The position numbers and the translations under genes were made by a program. 64,000 bases of DNA, taken from the NCBI RefSeq assembly GCF_001693735.1, contig NZ_LWDV01000006.1, forward strand, positions 29,023 to 93,022, given 5' to 3'. Under the pieces are notes generated by a model, which was not told the DNA's origin, did no database searches, and saw only the letters and a list, made by a program, of their open reading frames with translations. Positions 3,566 through 61,440 of the stretch are shown piece after piece (position 1 is the stretch's first letter; every line of letters starts with the position of its first letter). The DNA comes from Orenia metallireducens (GTDB lineage Bacteria; Bacillota; Halanaerobiia; Halobacteroidales; Halobacteroidaceae).

Positions 3566-4147
<582 letters not shown>

Positions 4148-4149
4148 CT

Positions 4150-4260
4150 ATAAAAGCCTTCTTACTAGTAAGAAGGCTGGATAATCTAAATAAACTTTAG
4201 TTATAACTAATAAGAAATTTATAACTAAATCTCCACTCCCCTTACTAGCCTCACTGGACT
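4150..4260 (-). promoter_or_regulatory. PyrR-binding attenuator upstream of pyrR
   Basis: The minus-strand leader carries AGTCCAGTGAGGCT (4247-4260), a close match to the PyrR-binding loop, followed by AAGGGGAG and then a terminator with a 12-bp arm palindrome (4155-4178, AGCCTTCTTACT) and a T-rich tail. This is the second copy of the element, the other preceding uraA. Confidence 0.85.
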
Positions 4261-4307
4261 AATTTAAAAAGGTTTTAAAAACGTCATTATTTCTTCTTGT
4301 CTAGGAA

Positions 4308-19640: not shown

Positions 19641-19757
19641 GATATCTTTCTCTTCTCTCATCCAGACTTTAACTGTCGGCTCTGGAATTTCACCAGATCT
19701 GCTTGCGCTCGCGGGCTATTACCGCCGGTTAGGAATTGCACCTGACCCCGAAGAATT
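19641..19757 (-). promoter_or_regulatory. FMN riboswitch (RFN element)
   Basis: The minus strand carries the conserved RFN blocks in order: CTTCGGGGTCAGGTG, TTCCTAACCGGCGGTAATAG, CCCGCGAGCGC, GATCTGGTGAAATTCCAGAGCC, GACAGT and GTCTGGATGAGAGAAGA. FMN binding would favour the terminator at 19583-19616. Confidence 0.97.
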
Positions 19758-19788
19758 TGACATTATTAAATTTTCTACTTTACAAATA

Positions 19789-37577: not shown

Positions 37578-38133
37578 TTATTTATGAAATTCTTTAAATC
37601 TATCCTTCTTAACACCATGGATTGGACATTGATCAGGTGTACCATCTTTTACAGTATGACCACATTTTTCACAGATACTAACATACTCTAACTCATAATC
37701 CTTGCCTTTTTCAACAGCCTCTTTAGCCTCAGAAAATAATTTAGAGTAGATCTTCTCCGCCTCTAAAGAGTAGTAAAAAGATTTTACAGCATCACTCTCT
37801 CCTTGATCACTAGCCACTAAATGATATGTAGGGTACATCTGTTCGATTTCAAGTTCTCACCTGCAATTGCTCCTTCTAAATTCTTAGCTGTAGAAACCAA
37901 TCCAAACTCAGCACCAGAAACAACTAAGAAATCACCATCAACATTCTCATGTGCTCAAAATGATTACCGGCATGAACCTCTTCTGCATAAGCAATGGCAT
38001 CAAATAATAAAGCTACCTTAGGAAAACCATCTTTTTCTGTTTTTCTAGCCCACACCTTATACCTTTGATAGGCTTGACTCTCCCCACCAAAAGCTGAGCG
38101 TAAGTTCTGTGCTGTCATTTCATTCTTTACCAT
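37578..38133 (-). pseudogene. Rubrerythrin gene broken by two single-base deletions
   Basis: The frame from the ATG at 38133 encodes a rubrerythrin N-terminus (TAQNLRSAFGGESQAYQRY, EEVHAGNHFEHM) and stops early. Inserting one base near 37944 restores NVDGDFLVVSGAEFGLVSTA; a second base near 37852 restores GENFEIEQMYPTY and joins the C-terminal part. That part has the second diiron motif region EAEKIYSKLF and a rubredoxin-like CEKCG..CPIH, where the last position is His rather than Cys. The two lesions lie within 95 bp. Either the gene is freshly inactivated or the sequence has two homopolymer errors. The repaired protein would be a peroxide reductase. Confidence 0.88.
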
Positions 38134-38278
38134 CTCAACACCATTCTTTTTAGTATTAATAATCGTTACTATTAATATATTAACATCTAATAGACCTTTT
38201 GTCAAATTATAACTTAGTTTATCATGGGTTTCTAAATTTCATCTTAAATAAAACTTATGCTAATAGAAAAATTGATAG

Positions 38279-38448: not shown

Positions 38449-39639
38449 CTATCCTTTTATCTCTTCAGCTACCTTTCTAGCTAAAATAGCACAATCATCA
38501 AACTCCTTTTCTGTAGGAGCACATTTAACCTCAATAATTGGATGGACAGGCTCACAACCAATCTTATTAGCAAAATCCTTCAACCTATCACGGGACTCTC
38601 CACTCCAGCTGTAGGAACCAATTAGACCTAAAGTTTTATTCTTAATCTTCTTATTCTCTAAAAAACGAAGAAGGTTATCCATCAAAGGAAATACTCCTGT
38701 ATTATAAGTACAGCTTGCCAAAATCAAGCCCTTATAACGCCAAACATCATTGATAATATAGGACATATGGGTTTTAGAAACATTATATACCCTAATATTC
38801 TTGATTCCCTCTTTTGCAAGCTGGCGAGCAGTAGCTTCTACCATCTTCTCTGTATTACTATACATTGAACCATAGGCTATGACAACTCCATCTTCTGCTT
38901 CCTGATTACTCCACTTAACATATTTATCAATAATATATTGAGGATTACTACGCCAGATAGGTCCATGGGCTGAGCAGATAGTCTGAATATCTACCCCTTC
39001 TAATTTAGATATAGCTCTTAATACCATTTGACTATACTTGCCAACTATATTAGTAAAATAACGGGATATCTCATCTTCATAAAAATCAATATTCAATTCA
39101 TCATCGAAGATACCACCATCTAAATTTCCAAATCCACCAAAGGCATCACCTGAAAAGAGTACCTTATCCTGTTGATCATAGGTCATCATCGTTTCAGGCC
39201 AATGTACCATAGGTGTTAGATAAAATTTAAGTTGTCGATCTCCTAAATCTAAAGTATCTCCATCCTTAACCTCATGAAAATCTTCTGTAATTCCATAAAA
39301 ACCTTCAACAAAATTCAAAGTCTTTTTATTACCTACAATTTTAATATTGGGATACTCACTCTTAATCGCCTTAATAGAACCTGAATGATCAGGCTCCATA
39401 TGATTGATAATCAAATAATCTATCGGCCTATCTCCAATAACACCCTTAATATTTCTCAGATAAGAATTCATATAGCTATTCTTAACTGTATCTACTACAG
39501 CTACCTTCTCTCCAACGATTAGATAAGAGTTATAAGCTACCCCTTTAGGTAAAGGCCATAAAGCCTCAAATAACTCAGTCTCCCGATCATTAACACCGAC
39601 CCAATAAATATTATCAGTTATTGATGTAATCTGATTCAT
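38449..39639 (-). CDS. fprA: A-type flavodiiron protein (FprA)
   Basis: The 396-residue protein has a metallo-beta-lactamase-like diiron domain with HMEPDHSG, HWPETM, SGDAFGGFG and SAHGPIWR (all six expected ligands), followed by a flavodoxin domain (VIAYGSMYSNTEKM, SYSWSGESRDRL). There is no C-terminal rubredoxin. It reduces O2 or NO to water or N2O in anaerobes using reduced rubredoxin or similar. GGAGGGGTAAA precedes the ATG. It forms an oxidative-stress group with superoxide reductase and rubrerythrin. Confidence 0.95.
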   Translation of the reverse strand: MNQITSITDNIYWVGVNDRETELFEALWPLPKGVAYNSYLIVGEKVAVVDTVKNSYMNSYLRNIKGVIGDRPIDYLIINHMEPDHSGSIKAIKSEYPNIKIVGNKKTLNFVEGFYGITEDFHEVKDGDTLDLGDRQLKFYLTPMVHWPETMMTYDQQDKVLFSGDAFGGFGNLDGGIFDDELNIDFYEDEISRYFTNIVGKYSQMVLRAISKLEGVDIQTICSAHGPIWRSNPQYIIDKYVKWSNQEAEDGVVIAYGSMYSNTEKMVEATARQLAKEGIKNIRVYNVSKTHMSYIINDVWRYKGLILASCTYNTGVFPLMDNLLRFLENKKIKNKTLGLIGSYSWSGESRDRLKDFANKIGCEPVHPIIEVKCAPTEKEFDDCAILARKVAEEIKG

Positions 39640-39890
39640 TTTACCCCTCCTGGAAATATCTGCAATTTTATCAATTAAGGATAATTAACTTATGTAATCA
39701 TTTATTTTACAACTACTTCTATGCTTTAAAATAGAAAAACTATAATTAATAGCTCCTATATCTATTAGATATTATTATCATTATTATAAATAAATATAAT
39801 AATATTTTCAAGCAATTGACTAAATATGTAATTACTAATCATTTAGAAATTTATAGGTCTTTAAATCTAGAATTTAATTTGAAAATGGTG

Positions 39891-40004
39891 TTATAAATAG
39901 ATAGTGCCACATTTAAGCAACTAGTGACAAGTGACGAGTAACCAGTAAAGAACTTAACTTGTCATCTGTTACCCCTACTAGTTACTATCGCAATATATCC
40001 ATAG
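39891..40004. repeat. Dispersed palindromic repeat, copy E (full length)
   Basis: Ends TTATAAATAGATAGTGCCAC and CTATCGCAATATATCCATAG flank the GTGACAAGTGACGAGTAACC core and its inverted counterpart. The rest of 39640-39890 is AT-rich with nothing I can name. Confidence 0.7.
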
Positions 40005-40041
40005 TATCTTATTTTCACTTCACATTTCTAAGATATTATTC

Positions 40042-40182
40042 AAAAAAAATAAAGAAGCTGGTATCATCCGAAATACCAGCTTCTTAACGATTATATATAA
40101 CAAGGGAGGCTTGTTATTTAAGTAAAACCATTTTAACTAAGGGGAGGAATTTAGCAGTTCTTAGCTAGTAATGATTATCGTT
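40042..40182 (-). ncRNA. Candidate small RNA with two exposed CCUCC loops
   Basis: A perfect promoter (TTGACA, 17 bp, TATAAT at 40189-40217) and a strong terminator (stem 40052-40063/40074-40085 plus eight T) define an RNA of about 140 nt on the minus strand. It holds no credible ORF. The predicted fold has an AACGAT/ATCGTT closing stem, a CTAA-ATTCCTCCCC-TTAG hairpin, and a perfect AACAAG-CCTCC-CTTGTT hairpin. Both loops are complementary to the GGAGG ribosome binding site, as in C-rich regulatory sRNAs of Firmicutes such as RsaE/RoxS. Homology to those is not claimed. Confidence 0.72.
40052..40085 (-). terminator. Terminator of the candidate sRNA
   Basis: A perfect 12-bp stem AAGAAGCTGGTA/TACCAGCTTCTT followed on the minus strand by TATTTTTTTT. 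Confidence 0.9.
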
Positions 40183-40188
40183 ATCTAA

Positions 40189-40217
40189 ATTATATTATTA
40201 ATTGATCAATTTGTCAA
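40189..40217 (-). promoter_or_regulatory. Consensus sigma-A promoter of the candidate sRNA
   Basis: TTGACA (40212-40217) and TATAAT (40189-40194) with a 17-bp spacer on the minus strand, all 12 consensus bases matched. Confidence 0.9.
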
Positions 40218-40489
40218 GTGATTCTATTATCTTTTCCATTGATGAAAATTTTATTATGATTCACTAAATTTCATTAGATAAACTATCCATAATTTCAACA
40301 GAACTTGCATAAACTTATCTTAAGAGTATTAGTTGACAGAGCTTAAAAATAATAGAAATGAGATAGCTTCTAAACTAATGTTAAAGCAAATCTTATTTAA
40401 TTAAAGATATTCAAGATTAATTAATATTAACAATTATTATTATTTTCCGATAATAATAAGACTACTCCCATTAAAAGGAGGGATTTATT

Positions 40490-41074
40490 GTGGAAAAACT
40501 GGGCAAGGTTAATCCTATTGAAGCCATCAGCAAGATTGCTAAAGTAAGCAAGAATAATTCTAAAAAAAATAATAATCAAAATAAATCTAAAGAACATAAA
40601 GAACATACTAGTGATTTTATTGATATTACTTACAAGCATCGAGTCAATAATAATGAAGTTATTTATTCTAAACCAAATAACCACTCTAAAGATAATAATG
40701 ATAAAAACTTCTCAATAGATAATATTTCAGATAATGTCTTTACCTTCCTAAAATTAATGTATGAAGTCTATAAAGAAGAGAACCCAACCAATGAAGCAAC
40801 TATATTAAATAATTTTTATCATCTATCCTATGAGGGAATTACCTTAGGCTATGAGGAAGCTATCGATAATCTAAACGCATCTGAAGAGAATATAAGAAAG
40901 CTAATTAATAATACCTATAACCATATAATAGAAAAATTAGATAGCTGGTTTGCCAAGTATAATATCGAATTAAAAGATACAAAACCTTCTGACCTCAAAT
41001 CCATTGAGGTTGAAGAAGAGATTAAAAAATTTGTCAGTAAACTATTAATAGAACAGAAATTTCATAAATACTAA
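40490..41074 (+). CDS. Hypothetical protein, DUF5610-like C-terminus
   Basis: The 194-residue soluble protein has a Lys/Asn-rich, disordered first half (residues 15-80) and a helical second half. The segment GITLGYEEAIDNLNASEENIRKLINNTYNHIIEKLDSWFA fits the general shape of DUF5610 proteins, but this is only a weak resemblance. It starts with GTG behind AAAAGGAGGG and ends before a strong plus-strand terminator, so it is a single-gene transcript. I cannot give a function. It lies divergent from the candidate sRNA, whose loops could pair with this gene's binding site. Confidence 0.6.
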   Translation: MEKLGKVNPIEAISKIAKVSKNNSKKNNNQNKSKEHKEHTSDFIDITYKHRVNNNEVIYSKPNNHSKDNNDKNFSIDNISDNVFTFLKLMYEVYKEENPTNEATILNNFYHLSYEGITLGYEEAIDNLNASEENIRKLINNTYNHIIEKLDSWFAKYNIELKDTKPSDLKSIEVEEEIKKFVSKLLIEQKFHKY

Positions 41075-43025: not shown

Positions 43026-43128
43026 TGAACATCTCCCAAGGTATTTCCTTGTAGGAATTAGCACCTTTCCCTTATAGGTGGTTGCCGAGCTTCATAGGGC
43101 CTGTCCCTCCACTACTCTTGATGTATCT
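43026..43128 (-). promoter_or_regulatory. SAM-I (S-box) riboswitch
   Basis: Conserved S-box blocks on the minus strand: ATCAAGAGTAGTGGAGGGAC, AGGCCCTATGAAGCTCGGCA, ACCACC...GGTGCTAATTCC and P1 closing pair ACATC/GATGT (43120-43124 with 43029-43033). Confidence 0.97.
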
Positions 43129-61189: not shown

Positions 61190-61440
61190 ATAAAAAATCT
61201 CCTCCCAGAAAGGGACGAGGTTATCATCGCGGTACCACCCTAATTAGCACATAGTAAGCCAAAAGCTCACAGATATACTCACTTAAACAGAATAACGGTC
61301 TGCATCCGATTTCTCTTACTATTAATTTCAGAGAAATAGCTAAGAGGTGATCTTCAATACAGCTTCTGTTCCTAGGCTTCCACCATCCCTAGTTCGCTAT
61401 AACTTTCACCGTACCTACTCTTCTCTATCATAGCTTTTAT
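61190..61440 (-). promoter_or_regulatory. T-box riboswitch, isoleucine specific
   Basis: On the minus strand Stem I includes the specifier loop with GAAG-ATC-ACC; ATC (61349-61351) is an Ile codon. The T-box GGTGGTACCGCG lies at 61228-61239 and a terminator (61192-61220) follows with six T. Uncharged tRNA-Ile would favour antitermination. Confidence 0.95.

Follow-up and report, generated by a model that had tools for sequence, protein, structure and literature searches.

Regulatory RNAs that use C-rich loops to pair with Shine-Dalgarno sequences are represented in Firmicutes by RsaE/RoxS, which is under redox control, while RyhB and PrrF are known as iron-sparing RNAs repressed by Fur. FsrA of Bacillus subtilis (RF02273) is a small RNA under Fur control that pairs with Shine-Dalgarno sequences via C-rich stretches (PMC9410917, PMC12871923), and IsrR of Staphylococcus has Fur boxes in its promoter, C-rich hairpin loops, a variable terminator, little covariation in its conserved stems and a range of one genus (PMC9410917). 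Translational block by a C-rich RNA has been described for both FsrA and IsrR (PMC9410917, PMC12871923). In the papers that we searched, no small regulatory RNA was described for Orenia or for the order to which it belongs. Here we describe a predicted small RNA of Orenia metallireducens that appears to be an independently evolved counterpart of the iron-sparing small RNAs of E. coli, Bacillus and Staphylococcus.

The small RNA lies on the minus strand (40217-40042) of the 64,000-nt stretch of DNA that we analysed (hereafter the window), in a gap of 850 bp between a flavodiiron protein gene (38449-39639, minus strand, start at 39639) and a DUF5610-like gene (40490-41074, plus strand, start at 40490). 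ORF inspection from 39639 to 40490 revealed no further fitting ORF of at least 50 aa, in line with the otherwise empty gap of the original prediction. The consensus promoter claimed there, TTGACA-17-TATAAT of the sigma-A type (40189..40217, minus strand), matches at 12 of 12 positions. Such exact promoters are frequent in this genome, with 26 in a sample of 864 kb, four of them within the window, and one alone is weak evidence, unlike the combination of promoter, Fur-like box, C-rich stretch and terminator, which is rare. The predicted RNA, whose ends we place by the positions of promoter and terminator, is ~138 nt long (40042..40182, minus strand; matched by a covariance model), close to the 140 nt first suggested, and its four homologues (see below) have in common no small ORF preceded by a plausible ribosome binding site, for which reason a small protein gene was rejected. 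The closing stem and two hairpins that had been described were recovered in our fold as an outer stem, hairpin 1 and a hairpin 2 with a perfect stem of 8 bp. Hairpin 1 and its lower stem span 40126..40176, the 5' arm coinciding in part with the operator sequence discussed below, and the 18-nt loop includes CCUCCCC (40141..40147, within AAAUUCCUCCCCUUAG), the final C of which is paired. Hairpin 2, AUAACAAG-CCUCC-CUUGUUAU, spans 40097..40117, with the loop motif CCUCC at 40105..40109. The intrinsic terminator (40042..40085) is as strong as claimed, with a stem of 14 pairs, five of them G-C, at 40085-40052 and a U-rich tail; all these elements are on the minus strand. With the terminator the minimum free energy is -39.3 (z = -7.1), better than 200 of 200 shuffles, and without it z is -3.95, equalled by one shuffle in 200.

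Using BLAST and a covariance model on 59 genomes of the class, we found the small RNA in all three Orenia genomes (that of the window, G000; O. metallireducens MSL40, G012; and a further Orenia, G011) and in Halonatronum saccharophilum DSM 13868 (G008), and in none of the other 55. The model gave the four homologues E-values of 1e-21 to 4e-16, which only rank them against the rest, since it was built from the same four sequences; its further matches over the 59 genomes were terminator-like only. In one genome (G006) the DUF5610-like neighbour is present and the small RNA was not found. We searched 84,980 genomes for exact copies of hairpin 2 and obtained O. metallireducens, Halonatronum and 11 scattered records in unrelated taxa, which we judged, from taxon alone, to be chance matches. 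With all other matches scattered or terminator-like, wider homologues beyond Orenia and Halonatronum were rejected. In MSL40 and Halonatronum the small RNA sits between the same two genes as in the window; in G011 the DUF5610-like neighbour alone is kept, with a sulfurtransferase-like gene on the other side, and the small RNA is retained. Conservation of promoter, loops and terminator in relatives had been proposed as a check, and it held in all four homologues for the promoter (TTGACA-17-TANNAT), for hairpin 2 and loop 2, which are identical throughout, and for a paired terminator, and failed for loop 1 (AAAUUCCUCCCCUUAG), which the three Orenia share unchanged and Halonatronum has lost. The terminator stem has a wholly different sequence in G011 and Halonatronum with its pairing retained, that is, by compensation, and the pairs of hairpin 1 are retained where one or both partners have changed. 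Over the whole structure 95% of pair cells are kept, which no shuffle attains, and nine pairs are changed on both sides (3.4 in shuffles), covariation evidence that is modest because it comes from four sequences. Hairpin 2, being invariant, is neutral on whether its stem exists, and the AACAAG/CTTGTT stem, for which compensatory changes had been suggested as a further check, never varies across the four homologues, which is uninformative either way. With its own promoter and terminator, no ORF and conservation beyond its neighbours, the locus is an autonomous small RNA gene, as had been proposed.

No Rfam family matches this small RNA, in keeping with the earlier suggestion of a new one. Kinship with RsaE/RoxS, also suggested, was not supported, as cmscan gave no match at the locus at E up to 10; the likeness lies in Firmicute C-rich loops for Shine-Dalgarno pairing, whereas the Orenia RNA has a Fur-type box and two different hairpins. 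FsrA identity was rejected too: model RF02273 had no match at the locus in the four genomes at E up to 10, and its best matches elsewhere reached at most 25 bits against a cut-off of 80. FsrA is also shorter, at 84 nt compared with ~138 nt. Its promoter is controlled by Fur; that of the Orenia RNA carries a strong putative Fur-type box in the window's genome and MSL40 and a half-site in G011 and Halonatronum. IsrR has 174 nt, three C-rich regions and two Fur boxes (PMC9410917), and the Orenia RNA, with two C-rich loops and one clear box, is set apart from it by description. RyhB and PrrF resemble it in probable physiological role, that of a Fur-repressed iron-sparing RNA, but there is no sequence match in Rfam, and pairing would be through C-rich loops instead of the RyhB core. 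Because it matches neither Rfam nor FsrA and follows an IsrR-like plan with other counts, we assign the Orenia RNA to a new family, of a functional type already known, its function being predicted; the best reading is that it is functionally like FsrA and IsrR and not homologous to FsrA.

The original prediction did not mention a Fur-type operator, GATAACGATAATCATTACT, which we predict just downstream of the -10 box (40167..40185, minus strand), where it overlaps the transcription start; its sequence comes close to the classical Fur box. The Bacillus 7-1-7 Fur consensus reads TGATAATNATTATCA, and by our own count the operator agrees with 11 of its 14 specified bases. For B. subtilis, Fur boxes with 10 to 13 matches of 15 have been discussed (PMC6212828). 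We scored the operator with a weight matrix made from the boxes upstream of fur, feoA and an iron-uptake operon in the three Orenia genomes; its score of 14.6 is the best in the window, with four sites as good in 864 kb, on a matrix that is not independent of the classical Fur consensus because its boxes were chosen by resemblance to it. The operator is identical in MSL40 and scores low in G011 and Halonatronum (1.6 and 5.1, as expected in ~5% and ~2% of promoter-sized stretches), where the half-site AATCATTA alone is clear. This half-site has the same position in each of the four homologues, its last base variable, and all four genomes have a Fur homologue.

A Fur-type operator on the promoter of a small RNA points to iron. 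On balance, we favour somewhat the reading that the locus encodes a stand-alone small RNA that is repressed by Fur, induced by iron starvation and able to block Shine-Dalgarno sites with its C-rich loops, most likely to the effect of sparing iron. Iron-loaded Fur would repress the gene and, when iron becomes scarce, would leave the operator overlapping the transcription start, upon which an RNA of ~138 nt would be made. CCUCCCC in hairpin 1 and CCUCC in hairpin 2 could then pair with target mRNAs at their G-rich Shine-Dalgarno sequences and so keep them from being translated, and the result would most likely be iron sparing, as with FsrA and IsrR. It is less probable, and in our view unlikely, that the same RNA is under the peroxide sensor PerR and answers oxygen or peroxide, not iron. 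The autoregulatory sites of PerR-like genes score 12 to 14 with our matrix, which leaves Fur and PerR boxes unseparated, similar boxes precede the genes for a peroxiredoxin (G011) and a rubrerythrin-like protein (MSL40), and the genes at 36.4-39.6 kb of the window encode a flavodiiron protein, rubrerythrin, desulfoferrodoxin and a flavodoxin-like oxidoreductase. This redox neighbourhood, to which the original prediction had tentatively tied the RNA, is however not retained in G011, where the downstream side differs, and that tie was not supported. Moreover, the operator core GATAATCATT, which recurs in the fur box of all three Orenia (AAAAATGATAATCATTAAG) and in the feoA box of O. metallireducens (ATTAATGATAATCATTGAC), is nearer to these than to the ATAATTATTAT-like self-box of PerR. 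As PerR-type boxes also score well, the operator reads as a Fur family site, for which Fur is favoured over PerR.

The loop motifs CCUCCCC and CCUCC are the complements of GGGGAGG and GGAGG, each a strong core of a Shine-Dalgarno sequence, which agrees with the earlier claim that the C-rich loops are suited to such pairing, and translational block would thus be the natural mode of action. All four genomes have hfq; FsrA and IsrR function without Hfq (PMC9410917, PMC12871923). Our target tests were crude and covered a genome sample of about a quarter of the whole. In this sample, GGGGAGG start sites hardly exceeded the reversed control, and a comparison of duplex energies over 596 genes showed no better pairing with the loops for those with cysteine motifs of the Fe-S type (19 vs 577 genes, p = 0.93 and 0.74), a test of low power. 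Target prediction with the loops, which had been proposed as a check, thus gave no enrichment of Fe-S genes, nor did GGGGAGG and AAGGGAGGC start sites, duplex energies and iscR and hfq in the relatives yield a conserved iron-related target. The best single candidate is an iscR-like regulator gene before a cysteine desulfurase gene, whose ribosome site TTAAGGGAGGCTC could form a perfect 11-bp pairing with loop 2 in the window's genome and MSL40 (L286, L287); this pairing is lost in G011 and Halonatronum. A 12-bp pairing with hfq occurs in G011 only, and further candidates are fumarate hydratase alpha (fumA) and quinolinate synthase (nadA), these two being named by eye from sequence. The iron-sparing role is therefore suggested by the operator and not by the targets. 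The lack of iron bias in these tests would suit an mRNA regulator whose C-rich loops act on general or other targets (any strong GGAGG site, genes of the envelope or of growth), with a Fur-type box that was added in a lineage-specific way in two Orenia. CCUCC is the anti-Shine-Dalgarno core, and a strong operator is confined to two of the four genomes; nevertheless, the half-site AATCATTA keeps its place in all four, and a second candidate RNA with a Fur box and a C-rich stretch exists. We give this explanation a rather low probability.

Of 356 promoter-like sites (at least 10/12) in the 864-kb sample, nine have a Fur-like box, and only two of these nine have a C-rich stretch and terminator as well: the window's RNA, which we read as Fur-repressed, and a second candidate at G000:C9:97.8k (L233:17767-17907 = G000:C9:97767-97907, plus strand). 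The latter has a perfect promoter, a Fur-like box, AUCACCUCCU and a terminator, in the order TTGACA-17-TATAAT, GATAATAAGAATTGTTATT, AAAUCACCUCCUAAAAU and a long terminator hairpin. It was found after the fact, and one such pair could be chance; what makes it credible is its conservation in O. metallireducens MSL40 (L307:13435-13570), with the same promoter, ACCUCCUAAAAU and a terminator that is changed but paired. At the syntenic place in G011 it was not found. Its AUCACCUCCU resembles the anti-Shine-Dalgarno end of 16S rRNA, and presumably corresponds to the 16S rRNA 3' end. It is conceivable, although we hold it only tentatively, that Orenia has two unrelated Fur-controlled anti-Shine-Dalgarno RNAs which jointly form an iron-sparing circuit of independent origin in the Halanaerobiia. 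If the window's RNA is controlled by Fur, the iron-sparing RNA response would have had a further independent origin, beyond the Bacilli and Proteobacteria, among fermenting halophiles, one of which, O. metallireducens, is a reported iron reducer, as we take it to be from its name. It would also support C-rich loops directed at Shine-Dalgarno sequences as the recurrent solution in AT-rich Gram-positive genomes.

That the RNA is instead a leader or premature terminator of the downstream flavodiiron gene (39639), which lies on the same strand ~400 bp away in three of the four genomes, is highly improbable and was rejected, since in G011 the downstream gene is a different one and the small RNA remains, the terminator is strong in every homologue, where we saw no anti-terminator as an alternative fold, and the flavodiiron gene has its own promoter-like site at 39811.

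Some further observations concern the same genomes. Three other Orenia promoters (G011 and G012; L033, L035 and L043, near position 1500) share with the small RNA the layout of TTGACA-TATAAT and Fur-like box and are followed directly by very small reading frames or short transcripts. Upstream of an apparent gene for ribosomal protein S4, in Orenia as well as in Halonatronum (L045, L053 and L040, near position 1500), there is a Fur-like box of the GATAATAATAATCATTT type, an unexpected site for an iron or peroxide regulator. The rubrerythrin gene of the window (37578-38205, minus strand) is spread over different reading frames, its N-terminal part stopping at 37924 and its rubredoxin-like C-terminal part beginning at 37838, which indicates either a frameshifted pseudogene or a sequencing error. 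Elsewhere in the window, Rfam cis elements (T-box, SAM and FMN riboswitches and a PyrR site) were matched at 61208-61440, 43026-43127, 19646-19759 and 4147-4275 (minus strand).
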